DNA of 64,000 nucleotides, from assembly GCF_001618145.1 (NCBI RefSeq), contig NZ_LQNF01000003.1:62001-126000 (forward strand), written 5' to 3'. Shown here one piece after another: positions 5,893 through 54,129 of the stretch (within the stretch, counting starts at the first letter, position 1; every line of letters starts with the position of its first letter). A model generated the notes under the pieces. It searched no databases. It was not told the origin of the DNA and saw only the letters and a list, made by a program, of their open reading frames with translations. This DNA is from Oceanobacillus damuensis. Lineage in GTDB: Bacteria > Bacillota > Bacilli > Bacillales > Amphibacillaceae. The translations under genes were made by a program, and so were the position numbers.

Positions 5893-7530
5893 TTGGGTAA
5901 AAATAACTCTTTTCTGAAAACAGGCAGACCGGTAATGGAAGGGAAGAATGGGGCGGTCACATCGCCGCATTATTTAGCCACGCAAACCGGAAAGCGGATA
6001 CTGGACCGTGGCGGCCATGCGGTAGAAGCGGCGATTGCAGTTAATTCTGTACTTTGTGTTGTGCTCCCGCATATGGCTGGACTTGGTGGAGATTTATTCG
6101 CAATGGTTTGGGACGAGCAGGAAAAGGAAGTTAAGTCGTTAAATGGCAGTGGAAAATCCGGGAGTCAAGTGAACAGGGACGTATATAAACAAAAGGGCTT
6201 GGAAGAAATCCCGGAGCGTGGGCCTTTAGCAGCGAATACTGTCCCTGGAACGGTGGATGCATGGTGGGCCCTTCATAAACGATATGGAAAACTGGAATGG
6301 TCACAGCTGTTTGAAGACGCTATCCATTATGCGGAAAGTGGCTTTCCAATTACAGAAAAGGTGAGCGGTTATGTACAGGATAAGGCTGAATTATTAAGTG
6401 AATATCCGGAAACGAAAGCATTGTTTTTCAGCAATGGACATCCTATCCAAGCAGGAGAACTTCTGGTCCAGCCTAATTTGGCGTGGGCTTTCAAACAAAT
6501 TTCCAAAGACGGCAGAGATGCCTTTTACCAAGGAGAGATTGCGGATAAAGTTATTGCTTCCATGGAGAAGCATGATGGCTTGCTCGTAAAGGAGGACTTC
6601 GCAAATCACTCGTCGGAATGGGAAAATCCAATCACGAGGGAGTATAGAGGATACGAAATCTATCAAGTAAAACCGAATACACAGGGGCTTGCTGTATTAA
6701 TGATGTTGAATATGCTGGAAAAGTATGATATGGAATCGATAAATGATGGTACTGCAGATTACTATCATCTGTTGGCAGAGGCCAGCAAGCTAAACTTTCG
6801 CTATCGAGATGAATGGGTGACAGACCCTAACTCTATTCAAATACCCTACGATCAACTACTATCCAAAAACTTGTCATCGAAAATTAACGATCATTTCTCC
6901 AACGATAAGGTATTTCAGGAATCGAGCCTGGAAGAGCTTCCTTCGATTAAAGAAAGCAGAGACACTGCCTTCCTGAGTATCGTCGATGGAGATGGAAACT
7001 GTATTTCTCTGATTCAAAGCATTTTCCATGAATTCGGTTCGGCTTTTATCCCGGAAGGTTGCGGGTTCCTCCTGCAAAACCGTGGTTCATATTTTAGTTT
7101 GGACTCCAATCATCCAAATAGCCTGGAACCTAACAAGCGTACCTTTCATACAATCATCCCTGCAATGGCATTAAAGGATGGAAAGCCGTATATGTTATTC
7201 GGGTCCATGGGCGGAGAAGGCCAGCCGCAAACGCAATGTGCCATGCTGACAAGGGTGATTGATTTTGGCTATAACATTCAACAGGCGATTGAAGCCCCTC
7301 GCTGGCTTTATGGAAAAACGTGGGGCGAAGACAGCTCCACACTGAAGGTAGAGGCTAGGATCCCCAGTGAAATTGTTGATGATTTGAAAAAGCGTGGGCA
7401 CGAGGTGGAGGTCGTTGAAGACTATTCCCAAACGATGGGACATGCACAAGGAATAATCATTGACAGTGAGAGCGGGATATATAGTGCTGGAGCAGACCCG
7501 CGTGGTGACGGGATTGCACTATCCTGGTAA
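5893..7530 (+). CDS. Gamma-glutamyltransferase-family hydrolase (YwrD-like, cytoplasmic)
   Basis: This is a member of the gamma-glutamyltransferase Ntn-hydrolase family, which self-cleaves and cuts gamma-glutamyl or related amide bonds. The predicted cleavage and nucleophile residue is Thr358 in SRDTAFLSIVDGDGN; the conserved GGxGQPQTQ-like stretch near the end (GSMGGEGQPQTQ) fits. The start is TTG 5893, 6 nt after AGGAGG (5881-5886), giving 545 residues; the open frame continues upstream to 5737 but without family-like sequence. There is no signal peptide, unlike secreted Ggt, which matches the YwrD-like branch. The carrier gene starts 38 nt downstream, so both likely serve one substrate, identity unknown. 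Confidence 0.9.
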   Translation: MGKNNSFLKTGRPVMEGKNGAVTSPHYLATQTGKRILDRGGHAVEAAIAVNSVLCVVLPHMAGLGGDLFAMVWDEQEKEVKSLNGSGKSGSQVNRDVYKQKGLEEIPERGPLAANTVPGTVDAWWALHKRYGKLEWSQLFEDAIHYAESGFPITEKVSGYVQDKAELLSEYPETKALFFSNGHPIQAGELLVQPNLAWAFKQISKDGRDAFYQGEIADKVIASMEKHDGLLVKEDFANHSSEWENPITREYRGYEIYQVKPNTQGLAVLMMLNMLEKYDMESINDGTADYYHLLAEASKLNFRYRDEWVTDPNSIQIPYDQLLSKNLSSKINDHFSNDKVFQESSLEELPSIKESRDTAFLSIVDGDGNCISLIQSIFHEFGSAFIPEGCGFLLQNRGSYFSLDSNHPNSLEPNKRTFHTIIPAMALKDGKPYMLFGSMGGEGQPQTQCAMLTRVIDFGYNIQQAIEAPRWLYGKTWGEDSSTLKVEARIPSEIVDDLKKRGHEVEVVEDYSQTMGHAQGIIIDSESGIYSAGADPRGDGIALSW

Positions 7531-30671: not shown

Positions 30672-30770
30672 TGAAAACTATATTAAAAATGGGAAAATAT
30701 GTTCTGTCTAAAATAGACAATCAATGTTAAAATGAGACTTGTACAAGAAGGCTTTCATGGGTGGTGGCTT

Positions 30771-30793
30771 ACTCCCTTTTTTCGAAAGGGGGT
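30771..30793 (+). promoter_or_regulatory. Hairpin that sequesters the toxin ribosome site
   Basis: ACTCCCTTT (30771-30779) pairs with AAAGGGGGT (30785-30793) around a TTTCG loop. The second arm is the unusually strong ribosome site of the toxin frame, so translation would be blocked until the RNA is opened or processed. Confidence 0.65.
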
Positions 30794-30801
30794 GATGCCT
30801 G

Positions 30802-30882
30802 ATGACGGTATATGAATCGCTTGTTCTAATGATTTCATTTGGAACGTTAATCGTTGCATTGCTGTCAGATAATAAAAAATAA
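30802..30882 (+). CDS. Holin-like type I toxin peptide (26 residues)
   Basis: ATG 30802 opens a 26-codon frame, MTVYESLVLMISFGTLIVAL followed by LSDNKK, preceded by GGGGG at 9-nt spacing. It matches the Firmicute putative holin-like toxin family (Hol_Tox, related to TxpA/YonT): MTVYE start, one membrane helix and a charged tail. Such peptides damage the membrane when translated and are held off by an antisense RNA. The hairpin on its ribosome site, the terminator just behind it and the opposing promoter complete the usual layout. It is too short for most gene callers and may be missing from annotation. Confidence 0.85.
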   Translation: MTVYESLVLMISFGTLIVALLSDNKK

Positions 30883-30921
30883 CCACCCTGTGAGCCTGAC
30901 AAGCAATTAGGGTGGTTATTT
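30877..30921. terminator. Bidirectional terminator shared by toxin mRNA and antisense RNA
   Basis: AAATAACCACCCT (30877-30889) and AGGGTGGTTATTT (30909-30921) form a perfect 13-bp stem. The minus strand ends in TTATTTTTTATT, a good T tract; the plus strand has fewer T residues. Confidence 0.85.
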
Positions 30922-31018
30922 CGTAACTCTATTGTGAGTCGCCCCCTTGAAGGGCTATTGTATGTGACCGTTAGTGTATCAGCACTAGCGGTCTCTTTAC
31001 ATTTTATGCAACTGCTCT
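30877..31018 (-). ncRNA. Candidate antisense RNA antitoxin
   Basis: A transcript from the minus-strand promoter at 31025-31053 would start near 31018. It would contain the stem GACCG...CGGTC (30966-30993, 11 bp with two G-T/G-U pairs) and end at the shared terminator, overlapping the 3' part of the toxin mRNA. This is the arrangement of TxpA/RatA-like type I systems. No transcript data are available. Confidence 0.5.
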
Positions 31019-35823: not shown

Positions 35824-35864
35824 GACTTAACACCTCCTGTATGTTTCTTTAACATTCTAAGATT

Positions 35865-35893
35865 ATTATATAATGATTTGCTTATATATACAA
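35865..35893 (-). promoter_or_regulatory. arsR promoter with internal operator
   Basis: In minus-strand sense TTGTAT (35893-35888), 17 nt, TATAAT (35870-35865). The inverted pair ATATAA-N8-TTATAT (35868-35887) fills the spacer, as in ArsR/SmtB-family operators, so repressor binding would exclude polymerase. Confidence 0.65.
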
Positions 35894-36235
35894 TGAATTG
35901 GATTATATTACCGTGACATTTTTTGAGGGCTTAAATATAACTTTTTATGAAAAAGAGGGTCATAATGAGAGGATGCTCACTGCCTCAGTGGATGGATGGT
36001 CAATTTTCGTTGCATTTTAGTAGATATTGTCTTATGAATTTATGCTCTCCATAGCGACACAATCGAAGCGGGTATATAGTTTTAAACCGCACGCAAAAAG
36101 TAATTATGTGAGACGGCCCCCTTTTTTAGACAATAAAATCTCCCATTCCCACTTTAAATAAAACTGTATACTTGGGATTTATTTGTAATAAATTGACTGC
36201 ATAGTTCATAAATATAATTCACGCCCAATTTTGTT

Positions 36236-43061: not shown

Positions 43062-43326
43062 ATTAACAACGCTCCTAATTTCCGTTTTTTTTATTAGCCG
43101 TATACTAGCGTAACATGCTCAAATTTAACTTCAAGGGTTTACCAACAAGTCGGGTGCATATCGCTCAAATAATTAAGGTAAGCGGTAACATTCGGAGTTA
43201 TATCCGTATGATCGTTGCTGAAGAGCTTTAATCGTGTTTTAACGCGAGATATGGAGGCTGGAAAAATGGGGAAAGTGGTTTTAATGGTATTAAGTGGGTT
43301 TGAGCAGCAAGCAAAAAGTGTAAGAG

Positions 43327-43511
43327 CGGGCGTAGATGAAGTGAAGTCGGGAGGCAGTGAAGTTGAACCGGGAGAGTAGGGAATGAAGTCGGGAGGCAAC
43401 GATGTTGAACCGGGAGAGCGAGGAGAGAAGTCGGGAGCAGTGAAATTGAATCGAGCTGCTGAGAGTACAAGCGGGAAGAAGCCGAATCGAGCGACAGCGG
43501 GCAGGTACCTC
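43327..43511 (-). repeat. Phased array A: CTCTCCCG-type motif, 9 units at about 20.6-bp pitch
   Basis: On the plus strand CGGGAGAG-like motifs begin at 43327, 43348, 43369, 43390, 43411, 43432, 43452, 43472 and 43492 (spacings 21,21,21,21,21,20,20,20), with the later units degenerate. The sequence between motifs varies, except that the 42-bp two-unit block at 43342-43383 is nearly repeated at 43384-43425. On the minus strand, which is the transcribed strand of both neighbours, the motif reads CTCTCCCG. No gene is supported in 43062-43686. Confidence 0.85.
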
Positions 43512-49562: not shown

Positions 49563-49620
49563 ATAACGGCGAATTTTAAGATTTATCAGCAATTTTTTTA
49601 AATTTATCAGCGAATTCAGC
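49563..49620. repeat. Short phased element C: TTTATCAGC-type motif at 20/21-bp spacing
   Basis: ATTTATCAGC occurs at 49581 and 49602 (21 nt apart); a degenerate unit (ATAACGGCGAATT) lies 20 nt before. This is the same pitch as arrays A and B but another motif. The surrounding spacer (49482-49792) is otherwise without gene; TGTCGAA at 49709-49715 is a possible, weak Spo0A box. Confidence 0.45.
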
Positions 49621-50879: not shown

Positions 50880-52481
50880 ATGACAAAACTGAAAAAGTCA
50901 TTATTAATTACTGTTTTTGTATTTGTACTAGGTACGCTGCTTGCCGCTTGTGCAAGTGAGCCGGATGAAAATGCTGGGGATGACAGCACGACACAGGAGG
51001 AAGGCACACGTGGTGGTGACCTTGTCATTGCAACACAATCAGATGCGGTATCCTTGGATCCGCATGCTACAAATGACACGCCATCTGCAGACGTACGCAT
51101 TAATATTTATGATAATTTGGTAATCCAGGATGAAAACATGGAGCTGCAGCCGAGCCTTGCAGAAAGCTGGGAACAGATCGATGATACGACATGGGAATTT
51201 AAGCTGCGCGAAGGTGTTACATACCATGATGGGTCAGCGTTCAATGCCGAAACGGTAAAAGCAAACATCGAACGTATTTTGGATCCGGATATCGGAGCGC
51301 CGGTTGCATTTATGTATGACATGGTAACAGAAGTTGAAGTGGTTGATGAGTATACGGTACGATTTATCACAGAATTTCCTTTTGCTCCACTTCCTGCACA
51401 TTTAGCACATCCAGGTGGACAAATGGTATCCAAGGAACAAATTGAAGAAGACTACGCTGCAATGGAAAATGGTGAACAGCCTGGTACCGTAATTAATCAA
51501 AACCCAATCGGTACTGGTCCATTCAAATTTCAGGAATGGAACAGTGGACAATCCATTGTATTAGAAAACAATGAAGATTATTGGGATGAACCTGCACTGC
51601 TTGACTCTATAACATTCAAAGTGATTTCTGAGGATCTAACTCGTATTTCCGAATTAACAACAGGTGATTCACATGTAACGACTCCACTGAGTCCATCTGA
51701 TGTTGCACAAGTTGAAGGTACGGATGGAACGAATGTGCAAAGACAGGAAAGTTCATCACTTGCATACATTGGATTCAATATGGATAAAGAGCCATTTGAT
51801 GATGTTCGGGTCCGTCAGGCGATTTCCATGGCTATCGATAAAGAAGAGATTATTAACGGAATCTATGATGGAGTTGGGATCCCTGCAAAAGGACCACTAG
51901 CACCAGGAATCTTTGGCCATGATGAGGATCTGAATGGCCTGGAATACGATGTAGAGGAAGCAAAAGCATTATTGGAGGAAGCTGGCTATGGAGATGGCTT
52001 CTCCGCAACAATCTGGACAAATGATGATCGCCAGCGTATGGATACTGCGACAAATGTCCAGGCACAGCTTGCAGAAATCGGAATCGACCTGGAAGTGGAA
52101 GTGCTTGAGTGGGGAGCAATGCTGGAGCAAACCGCACAAGGTGAACATGAAATGATGGTATTCGGCTGGACAACGGTTACAGGCGATGCCGACAACGGAA
52201 TGTATCCATTATTCCACTCCGACAATCTTGGAGCACCAGGAAACCGAACATTTACAGTGGACGAAGAATTGGACAGCTACCTGGATGAGGCACGCCAAAC
52301 TGCCGACCCTGAGGTCCGACTAGAATTATACAGCAAAGCACAGGAAAAACTAGTAGAACTAGCACCATTCGTATACCTGCTTCACCAGGAATATTTATTG
52401 GGAGTAAGGGATGAAGTGAAAGGATTGTCGCAGTTGCCTACACAGCTGCTGCAATTGAAAGAGGTTTATATTGAGGAATAG
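50880..52481 (+). CDS. Peptide ABC transporter substrate-binding lipoprotein (family 5), first copy
   Basis: The 533-residue protein has a lipoprotein signal (GTLLAACASE) and the family 5 fold of oligo- and dipeptide receptors: SLDPHATND, YDNLVIQDENMELQPSLAESW, NPIGTGPFKFQEW, VRQAISMAIDKEEII. It binds peptides (or a related ligand such as glutathione) outside the cell. It is followed by a terminator and array B, so it is a separate unit from the ABC operon beyond, which has its own receptor. Confidence 0.93.
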   Translation: MTKLKKSLLITVFVFVLGTLLAACASEPDENAGDDSTTQEEGTRGGDLVIATQSDAVSLDPHATNDTPSADVRINIYDNLVIQDENMELQPSLAESWEQIDDTTWEFKLREGVTYHDGSAFNAETVKANIERILDPDIGAPVAFMYDMVTEVEVVDEYTVRFITEFPFAPLPAHLAHPGGQMVSKEQIEEDYAAMENGEQPGTVINQNPIGTGPFKFQEWNSGQSIVLENNEDYWDEPALLDSITFKVISEDLTRISELTTGDSHVTTPLSPSDVAQVEGTDGTNVQRQESSSLAYIGFNMDKEPFDDVRVRQAISMAIDKEEIINGIYDGVGIPAKGPLAPGIFGHDEDLNGLEYDVEEAKALLEEAGYGDGFSATIWTNDDRQRMDTATNVQAQLAEIGIDLEVEVLEWGAMLEQTAQGEHEMMVFGWTTVTGDADNGMYPLFHSDNLGAPGNRTFTVDEELDSYLDEARQTADPEVRLELYSKAQEKLVELAPFVYLLHQEYLLGVRDEVKGLSQLPTQLLQLKEVYIEE

Positions 52482-52486
52482 AGCAG

Positions 52487-52525
52487 AAAGCATGGGGGCG
52501 TTTCAAAACGCTCCTATGCTTTTTT
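52487..52525 (+). terminator. Terminator after the first peptide-binding protein
   Basis: AAAGCATGGGGGCGTTT and AACGCTCCTATGCTTTTTT pair over about 15 bp and end in T residues, 5 nt after the stop. Confidence 0.9.
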
Positions 52526-52571: not shown

Positions 52572-52806
52572 CTCTCCCGCAAGTTCGGGGAACTCTCCTG
52601 GAAATGACGCAGTTCTCCCGGCTGGCAGTTGCTCTCTCCCGACTTATGCAAGTCTCTCCCATATAGATGTTGCGCTCTCCCGAAAAAAGGATTCCCTCTC
52701 CCGCCTGGCCGGGGACTCTCCGAAGAAAAGACGCTGCTCTCCCGCCCGTCCGTCGCTCTTTCCTGACAAGCGACACAGCTCTCCTATATGACAGAGTACT
52801 CTCCCG
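52572..52806 (+). repeat. Phased array B: CTCTCCCG motif, 12 units at about 20.6-bp pitch
   Basis: CTCTCC(C)(G) begins at 52572, 52593, 52613, 52634, 52654, 52675, 52696, 52716, 52737, 52756, 52779 and 52799 (spacings 21,20,21,20,21,21,20,21,19,23,20; mean 20.6). The 12-15 nt between motifs are unrelated in every unit, and the change between 20 and 21 rules out a repeated reading frame. It lies behind the terminator of one gene and about 100 nt before the next, all on the plus strand. Confidence 0.92.
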
Positions 52807-52902
52807 CCTCGATTTAAAATAACTATTTACTAGATTGCCTTATTCCTATATAATATATATAAATATCCGAATATTATGTAAAAATAGCGAGGAGCATGTC
52901 TT

Positions 52903-54129
52903 TTGAAAAAATTATATCCCGAGGAAACATACGCACGAGATCGGGAGGCAGTTATTCAATTAACGAGAGAACTTGTAAGAATTCCCAGTGTTTACCGGGA
53001 AAACGACCCAACAGGCAATGAGGCGAAAGTTGCTGGCTATGTAGCGAATTATTTAAATCGAATTGGGATTGAGACACATATGGAAGAAGTAGTACCTGGC
53101 AGACCGAATGTCATTGGAATTGTCGATTCAGGGAAACCAGGAAAAACCCTGCTTTTTGAAGGACATACAGATGTTGTAACTGCGGGGAATCGTGAGAGTT
53201 GGGAATATGATCCGTTTGGTGCGGAGATTGTTGAAGGGAAAATGTATGGACGTGGGACGAATGATACGAAAGGGAATCTGGCTTGTATGATTACAGCCGT
53301 TCACTCGATTCTATTAGATCAGGCTGCATTTACCGGTAAAATTATCCTTTGCATTCCTTGTGACGAAGAGGGTCTCATGCAAGGCATCAAACATTTCATA
53401 GAACAGGGCTGGGCAGATGGAGTCGATGGGGCCATTATTTGTGAGCCTGAAGAAAATCAGGTTTGCATTGCCCAACGAGGTGCAATCCGATTACAAGTCG
53501 ATATTTACGGAAAAATGGCCCATGGCGCTATATCATGGAGCGGTATCAATCCCAATTGGCGATTGGCAAGGTTGCTTGTTCAATTGGAAAAGCTGGAAAA
53601 GGACGAGCAAGAAAGATATGGGGAAGACCCCTTGTTAAAATGGCCTTCCATTACACCGACCATTATTCAATCTCCAGTCAAAGGGGAAGCCCAAATTAAT
53701 GTTATTCCTGACCATTGCATGCTGACATTGGATATACGCACCGTCCCCGCTCAAAATCATGATGATTTATTACAACAGATATATTCCATTGTGGATCGTC
53801 TTAAAGCGGAAGATGCGGATTTTCGTGCAGAATTGACCGTCGTCGATAATCGCCCGCCTACCGCTACGTCAAAAGACGACCCAGTCGTACAAGCAGTATA
53901 TGAAGCAGTGAAAGGTGTAACTGGCAAAACACCTGTTTATAACGGTGTGCCAGGTGCAACAGATGGGACATTTTTACATGTACATGGCATTCCAATTGTG
54001 ACAATTGGTGCTGGTGATCGGGACGTGCCACATCAATTAAATGAATATGTTGAGATTGAGGAATTGGCTGAAACAACAGCGATATACCGGGAGGCGGCAT
54101 TGCGCTTCTTAAACAGGGAAAATGATTAG
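52903..54129 (+). CDS. M20-family peptidase (ArgE/DapE-like)
   Basis: A 408-residue zinc peptidase or deacylase. Metal residues are visible: His88/Asp90 (FEGHTDVV), Asp121 (GRGTNDTKG), Glu155/Glu156 (PCDEEG), and His near the end (GAGDRDVPHQLNE). It starts at TTG 52903, after GAGGAG. It is the first gene of the peptide ABC operon, 132 nt before the OppD-like gene. Relatives remove acyl groups or N-terminal residues from dipeptides, suiting breakdown of imported peptides. Confidence 0.93.
   Translation: MKKLYPEETYARDREAVIQLTRELVRIPSVYRENDPTGNEAKVAGYVANYLNRIGIETHMEEVVPGRPNVIGIVDSGKPGKTLLFEGHTDVVTAGNRESWEYDPFGAEIVEGKMYGRGTNDTKGNLACMITAVHSILLDQAAFTGKIILCIPCDEEGLMQGIKHFIEQGWADGVDGAIICEPEENQVCIAQRGAIRLQVDIYGKMAHGAISWSGINPNWRLARLLVQLEKLEKDEQERYGEDPLLKWPSITPTIIQSPVKGEAQINVIPDHCMLTLDIRTVPAQNHDDLLQQIYSIVDRLKAEDADFRAELTVVDNRPPTATSKDDPVVQAVYEAVKGVTGKTPVYNGVPGATDGTFLHVHGIPIVTIGAGDRDVPHQLNEYVEIEELAETTAIYREAALRFLNREND

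Follow-up and report, generated by a model that had tools for sequence, protein, structure and literature searches.

A dispersed family of two-turn-spaced motif arrays in Oceanobacillus damuensis and its relatives

Introduction

In a stretch of 64,000 nucleotides of Oceanobacillus damuensis DNA, analysed as a whole and called the window below, an eight-base motif, CTCTCCCG, recurs twelve times between two genes, each copy about two helical turns from the next. This locus, array B, raises the question of what keeps both a motif and its spacing: a protein that reads the DNA, a transcript, an encoded peptide, or the amplification of the repeat itself.

Results

Array B is a regular chain of twelve motifs

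The best chain of motif copies through array B starts at positions 52572, 52593, 52613, 52634, 52654, 52675, 52696, 52716, 52737, 52758, 52779 and 52799 (Table 1). It scores 28.5, against at most 5.6 for dinucleotide shuffles of the array (2000 of them) and 3.5 for shuffles of the whole window (30); the motif used for scoring is the one supplied by an earlier, sequence-only reading of this DNA. The twelve copies which that reading had counted between 52572 and 52806 are therefore borne out. The intervals are 21, 20, 21, 20, 21, 21, 20, 21, 21, 21 and 20, so that every one is 20 or 21 bp. Two values given earlier, 19 and 23, resulted from placing copy 10 at 52756; taking it as CTTTCCTG at 52758 turns both into 21, and all the other intervals stand. 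Exact CTCTCCCG is found eight times on the two strands of the window, where 0.74 are expected by chance: six copies lie in array B, two in array A, and none outside these two arrays.

Table 1. Arrays A and B and the features next to array B, in positions of the window
Feature	Position	Strand	Description
Array A	43314..43439	-	6 half-units of 21 bp, 42-bp superperiod; same repeat family as array B; pyrroline-5-carboxylate reductase-like gene on one side, ABC ATPase gene on the other
Gene upstream of array B	50880..52481	+	extracellular solute-binding protein family 5 (SBP_bac_5)
Terminator-like hairpin with T-tail	52485..52524	+	between upstream gene and array B
Array B	52572..52819	+	12 half-units of 20-21 bp, each motif CTCTCCCG plus a 12-13 bp spacer; dimer 41-42 bp
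Promoter-like site	52826..52854	+	between array B and downstream gene
Gene downstream of array B	52903..54129	+	M20 family peptidase

The terminator-like hairpin is a consensus match with 18 pairs (shuffles average 0.3), and the promoter-like site agrees with the consensus at 10 of 12 bases (3 such sites in the region; shuffles average 0.8). The presence of the one before array B and of the other after it suggests that the array is not transcribed with either gene.

In the whole window, the sole Rfam match at the gathering score was BsrG, an sRNA gene family, at 30740-30990 on the + strand (91.5 bits, gathering score 55). Two short AT-rich tandem repeats with a period of 20-21 bp, at 49574-49616 and 35861-35908, have a consensus without the CTCTCCCG motif.

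Array B belongs to a family dispersed in the host genome

Array B is one of about 18 copies in the host genome of a dispersed repeat family that lies between unrelated genes. The strict pair pattern matched the host genome 20 times (reversed control 0). From 18 windows we built model R1, which matched 56 times at E<=1, and the fetched regions chain into 18 arrays; a weak R1 match on host contig 30 gave no chain. The model, like the pair pattern, is biased towards the CTCTCCCG form. Enrichment and phasing of the motif extend beyond array B in the host genome, and the claim made for this array has thus withstood the genome scan proposed as its check.

The orientation of the 18 arrays was read against neighbouring ORFs of at least 90 codons, array-overlapping frames of less than 300 codons being discounted: six are sense, four antisense, four convergent and two divergent, and the other two lie near contig ends. 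We scanned 20 of the 34 flanking ORFs, including all four of arrays A and B, and obtained a Pfam match for 19. Together with 10 scanned ORFs of a second genus, g45, these genes belong to unrelated families, and no common function was seen among them. BLAST, which is weak for diverged repeats, returned no plasmid match for one host array and one array of the g45 genome G129, and no phage match for the latter.

The sequence-only reading had also considered a transcript of the array that acts as a sponge for ribosome sites. We regard as quite unlikely a regulatory RNA of this kind, whether ribosome-site sponge or 3' end element. CUCUCCC does resemble part of the anti-Shine-Dalgarno sequence, and the fold z-score falls below -2 in 6 of 49 arrays on one strand and in 7 of 49 on the other. 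On average, however, the folds equal those of shuffles (mean z -0.02 and -0.24 on the two strands over the 49 arrays), adjacent spacers show no more complementarity than shuffled spacers do, and the window scan gave no Rfam family at the gathering score at array B; a structured RNA thus finds no support in the average fold or in Rfam. The mixed orientation to genes, in host and g45 arrays alike, and the position of array B between a terminator-like and a promoter-like site also speak against an RNA. In its favour we count the coverage of STAR-like elements by RNA-seq reads in one S. aureus strain, according to an excerpt of one study (PMC5294841).

The repeating unit is a dimer and the motif outlasts its spacers

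It had been stated that the spacers share no sequence, and that array B is for this reason not a simple tandem duplication. When all pairs are compared, spacer identity in array B is indeed near chance (0.28, with 0.26 predicted from composition). Sorted by lag, their identity is 0.19, 0.39, 0.21, 0.37, 0.18 and 0.42 at lags 1 to 6. Every second spacer is thus alike, with 0.39 at even and 0.19 at odd lags (permutation p=0.003), which shows that the repeating unit is a dimer of 41-42 bp with two motifs. The first statement therefore fails and the second is half right, because the way similarity varies with lag suggests that a 42-bp dimer has been duplicated. Array B is a run of 41-42 bp dimers, the two halves of which share the motif and little else.

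The same alternation runs through the arrays of the host genome (0.34, 0.58, 0.37 and 0.53 at lags 1 to 4) and through those fetched from other genomes (0.48, 0.61, 0.49 and 0.61). Pooled over 40 arrays, the difference between even and odd lags was reached by none of 300 permutations, and it exceeds 0.1 in 19 of the 40. This lag pattern argues for growth by duplication of the 41-42 bp dimer. Loci range from 3 to 25 half-units with a conserved eight-base core.

Motif identity is 0.75-0.88 over lags 1-8 and spacer identity 0.34-0.61, alternating with lag. The motif columns hold 0.93-1.78 bits in the host and 0.75-1.88 bits elsewhere. Spacer columns hold 0.09-0.44 bits in the host, save position 11 (0.88), and 0.05-0.77 bits in other genomes, again save position 11 (1.42); most lie between 0.05 and 0.55 bits, the exceptions being positions 10-12 and 14. 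Within array B the motif is 0.84 identical. Neutral decay that brought the spacers near chance should have removed the motif too; that the motif outlasts its spacers suggests a constraint on it.

Spacing was counted in two ways. Among 459 intervals of 60 arrays, 405 measure 21 bp, 47 measure 20 bp, and 3, 2 and 2 measure 19, 18 and 22 bp, under a chaining rule that favours 20 and 21; motif pairs counted without this rule fall 257 times at 21, 24 times at 20, twice at 19 and once at 22. Both counts place the motif at an integral two-turn spacing, as expected of a phased array and as first proposed. The spacing shifts by one base but rarely by more, which suggests that helical phase is constrained as well. 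Both constraints are what one would expect if a protein recognised the motif along a single face of the DNA.

A pitch of 21 bp would also be that of a heptapeptide repeat, an explanation to which we give very little credence. It gains from the predominance of 21-bp intervals, from the few stops in frame 1 (11 in 1533 codons), and from the open frames of about 90-135 codons that overlap 12 of the 18 host arrays, to which the 82-codon frame on the strand opposite array B may be added. These frames, however, occur on either strand (six on the motif strand and six on the other), conservation at the third codon positions of the motif (3 and 6) hardly differs from that at the other positions, and 52 of the 459 intervals, of 19, 20 or 22 bp, break the frame. 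Moreover, frame 1 is stopped in 7 of the 25 arrays of at least six units that keep a pitch of 21 bp throughout, and arrays of two other genera have a 20-bp pitch (next section). Stops and frame-breaking intervals make a repeated peptide unlikely. Its dismissal by the sequence-only reading was probably right, though not for the reason offered, a strict alternation of 20 and 21, which these 25 arrays lack.

Arrays are patchily distributed among relatives

Across 28 genomes of the host genus, R1 at E 1e-4 matched the host, which has many arrays, and one other genome, which has one site. At the same threshold it matched 13 of the 147 genomes of the host family. The motif pair TCTCCCG-N13/14-TCTCCCG was found in 20 of the 147 (its reversed control matched once in all 147), with a single match in some of the 20 and up to 113 in one. 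In a phylum sample, 2 of 398 genomes matched at E 1e-5, namely the host itself and another genome that matched once. Geosporobacter has one R1 match. In the relatives scan, a looser pair pattern matched once in each of 5 genomes out of 38 others, where the reversed control gave 2 matches, which is about chance. Among the matches listed in a three-motif scan of contigs were Pseudogracilibacillus (G073), Virgibacillus halotolerans (G071) and V. proomii (G159), all three of the host's family, Lentibacillus sediminis and many others. The pitch, among the matches listed, is 20 in the Pseudogracilibacillus and Lentibacillus arrays, apart from one interval of 21; in the V. proomii arrays it is 21.

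The distribution is patchy, also inside genera, and this may be overstated because R1 and the pair pattern are tuned to CTCTCCCG and can miss related motifs such as CTCTCACG, seen in a Lentibacillus array.

The patchiness across the genomes of genus and family is in keeping with a selfish or neutral minisatellite, a repeat that would have no function for the host and would spread and expand by slippage or a dispersal enzyme. The motif would then be kept only as a need of the amplification step, for example as a site of misalignment or cutting. Such a minisatellite is the main rival explanation, and we take it to be a real possibility, if one short of even. It is favoured also by the near-perfect tandems of Pseudogracilibacillus, whose spacers are array-specific. 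Against it stand the 0.84 identity of the array B motif beside near-chance spacers, and a pitch that drifts from 21 to 20 (47 of the 459 intervals) but hardly to 22 (2 of 459).

Two observations concern assembly and gene calling. The near-perfect 20-bp arrays of G073 lie within a few bases of contig starts (contigs 12 and 19; L069, L112 and L133), so that assembly seems to stop at arrays and drafts may yield too low a count. The one array inside a long called ORF is in genome G097 (L273:5497-5706); the frame has about 730 codons, and since the array begins 9 bases past its called start, that start may have been called too early.

Sites, motif and pitch persist between species of one genus

Genus g45 has arrays in all three of its genomes. 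They occupy orthologous intergenic sites in three species (sets 1 and 2) or in two (sets 3, 4 and 5), between proteins that are 68-94% identical from species to species. Unit numbers at such sites differ (10 and 7, 6 and 14, 9 and 4), and the spacers of six orthologous pairs are 0.47 identical, against 0.45 between species and 0.41-0.51 within species for non-orthologous arrays. Thus, in g45, site, motif and pitch persist between species, and spacers and unit number turn over. The earlier claim that the motif and its phase are what is kept is upheld by these arrays as well as by the column information above.

Persistence of arrays at several intergenic sites between species tells against a minisatellite. 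The variable unit numbers at orthologous sites favour it, as does set 6, judged by eye, in which a 3-unit array of G076 is matched in G129 by about 15 other bases between alignable flanks; no target duplication was evident there by eye. In set 8, also by eye, the array is present in G076 and absent in G129.

For array B itself, no orthologous spacer was found in which to look for motif and pitch; in g45, orthologous spacers keep both. A close M20 peptidase is encoded in three other genomes of the host genus. The gene upstream of it is that of a sodium:solute symporter in two and of a transglutaminase in one, and the solute-binding protein found upstream of array B has no match in these three loci; the different upstream genes leave no orthologous spacer to compare.

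A region of the g45 genome G112 (G112:C1:3116592-3144438; L259, L260) holds 11 match groups, or 9 chained arrays, within 28 kb, and related regions exist in G076 and G129. That of G076 carries genes for capsule-type polysaccharide synthesis and alkaline phosphatase. In G076 (L265:2614-3030), a different GC-rich repeat with blocks of about 200 bp, identified by eye, adjoins a CTCTCCCG array.

Strand polarity is clear in one genus

Of 72 match groups in g45, formed by hand among the matches listed, 68 have GGGAGAG on the leading strand, with the terminus assumed at mid-genome and the origin at position 0 checked by skew in one genome, G076. Per genome, again among the matches listed, the counts are 31 of 34 (G076), 21 of 22 (G129) and 16 of 16 (G112) groups; two G076 groups 164 bp apart chain apart and were counted separately. 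The fetched g45 arrays show GGGAGAG on the leading strand in all gene contexts: 9 of 9 convergent, 8 of 8 divergent, 4 of 4 in lagging-strand tandem and 10 of 11 in leading-strand tandem, with one array unclassified. This indicates that the polarity does not follow gene direction. Scored by local skew, 27 of these 33 arrays agree.

Outside g45 the picture is less regular. In the host, 13 of 18 arrays agree, array A being counted among them with uncertainty, since the mean skew over the window speaks for agreement but the skew at 40-48 kb is negative; array B and four other host arrays are reversed. Counts made by hand, with the terminus assumed at mid-genome, gave 6 of 8 for G101, 5 of 8 for G097 and 3 of 9 for G054. 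The polarity is clear in genus g45; elsewhere it is weak or absent, and the family as a whole does not share it. Of 25 single GGGAGAG words in 300 kb of G076, those in arrays included, 20 lie on the leading strand and 5 on the other, so that much of the g45 polarity may be strand bias. Set against this ratio, 68 of 72 is higher by a narrow margin only (Fisher p 0.047); a one-sided binomial test against 0.8 gives 0.0005.

Polarity signals for a DNA translocase, of the KOPS or SRS type, would account for GGGAGAG pointing from origin to terminus in these g45 groups, and GGGAGAG resembles the SpoIIIE site GAGAAGGG. The reversal of array B and four other host arrays, the weak polarity in other genomes and the lack of an exact motif copy outside the arrays in the 64-kb window render this reading most improbable.

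An avoidance of the terminus was considered and given up: with clusters merged and positions entered by hand, the central quarter of the genome holds 1 of 12 clusters in G076, 0 of 9 in G129 and 1 of 5 in G112, and the effect is not clear in these three genomes.

Discussion

We propose, at about even probability, that array B acts at the level of DNA, as a helically phased array of protein-binding sites that grows by duplication of its dimer. A sequence-specific protein would recognise each successive core on the same face of the helix, with several molecules side by side, and core and phase would be retained because of it. Cooperative binding of a protein to motifs spaced by two turns is plausible. 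New copies would arise within the locus by slippage or unequal exchange. More tentatively, the reader may be a protein that serves the chromosome as a whole, in its organisation, its segregation or the traffic of forks, and not one that controls the neighbouring genes; the hint comes from the array-rich genus, where the G-rich strand coincides with the leading strand. The patchy distribution is odd for a basic function of the chromosome, since the host alone among the 28 genomes of its genus has many arrays. The proposal is weakened further by the weak or absent polarity outside g45 and its possible origin in strand bias within g45, by the lack of exact motifs outside the arrays of the window, by the unclear avoidance of the terminus and by the open frames that overlap 12 of the 18 host arrays.

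A bolder picture, which we think rather unlikely as a whole, is that of a bacterial higher-order satellite: 42-bp dimers dispersed over the chromosome, each with two protein-binding boxes on one face and with replication polarity in at least one genus, would be the landing strips used, in part of the Virgibacillus family, by a chromosome-organising protein specific to the lineage.

Several features of the arrays make the question of function testable: the two-turn phase, the dimeric unit, the sites kept between species, the polarity in one genus, and the existence of close relatives with and without arrays. If a protein binds the arrays, they represent a new way of marking a bacterial chromosome; if none does, they provide a clean model of how a motif is retained in repeats that otherwise turn over.

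Comparison with known systems

Several known arrangements share part of this design. Iterons and plasmid partition repeats are direct repeats of about 20-22 bp bound by protein in helical phase, and they sit at an origin or a partition site together with a Rep or Par gene. The 18 host loci, in contrast, lie beside unrelated genes, and no Rep family was found in the 20 of 34 flanking ORFs of host arrays that were scanned. With CRISPR the arrays share a conserved repeat, variable spacers and a regular pitch. CRISPR repeats exceed 20 bp, however, and their spacers of about 30 bp are unrelated, whereas here the repeat has 8 bp and the spacers, of 12-13 bp, are alike at even lags; the arrays are thus not of the CRISPR kind. 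No Rfam CRISPR repeat occurs in the window, and no cas family was detected among the scanned flanking proteins, save a weak Cas10-palm match inside a GGDEF protein.

A likeness in architecture is found in eukaryotes. In alpha-satellite with alternating CENP-B box monomers, a higher-order repeat is built from unlike monomers that share a short box recognised by a protein. It belongs to the eukaryotic centromere, and its monomers and arrays are much longer; the analogy is one of architecture only. KOPS and SRS are purine-rich octamers pointing from origin to terminus, scattered as single sites, also within genes. According to an excerpt of one study, its SRS repeat was built from GAGAAGGG (PMC5869595). 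The present repeats differ from these signals in sequence and in being arranged as arrays. The idea of a Noc site was dropped, a literature search for such a site having yielded no paper.

The repeat family (CTCTCCCG, CGGGAGAG) was not found described in the open literature, going by the titles and starts of abstracts listed in searches on tandem, interspersed and phased repeats in Bacillus, Bacillaceae, Virgibacillus, Oceanobacillus and Firmicutes. The sequence-only reading, which knew of no described element with this behaviour, had nevertheless overlooked the STAR elements of staphylococci, the closest known kind in behaviour. As excerpts of one report describe them, these consist of a short GC-rich motif, directly repeated with locus-specific spacers and in variable unit number, between genes; S. 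aureus has 32-39 loci, the distribution among species is unrelated to their relatedness, and function and dispersal are called unknown (PMC3532100). The present arrays likewise lie between genes, short overlapping frames being discounted, with locus-specific spacers and a variable number of units. They differ in that several of their sites are common to species of one genus, where the same excerpts give no STAR neighbourhood common to two species (PMC3532100). Compared by description only, the excerpted accounts of STAR mention neither two-turn phasing nor a dimer, nor a strand polarity such as that of g45 (PMC3532100, PMC5294841). STAR belongs to staphylococci, the present arrays to the family that holds Virgibacillus, with 2 of 398 genomes matching in the phylum sample. 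The STAR motif, according to the excerpts, is the 14-bp T(G/A/T)TGTTG(G/T)GGCCC(C/A), with at least 40 bp between copies (PMC3532100). Its signature TDTGTTGKGGCCCM has no match in the 64-kb window at 0 or 1 mismatch and one at 2 mismatches, at 6055, outside both arrays, where 3.1 are expected by chance. As the signature is absent from the arrays, they are not STAR elements, but they evolve like them.
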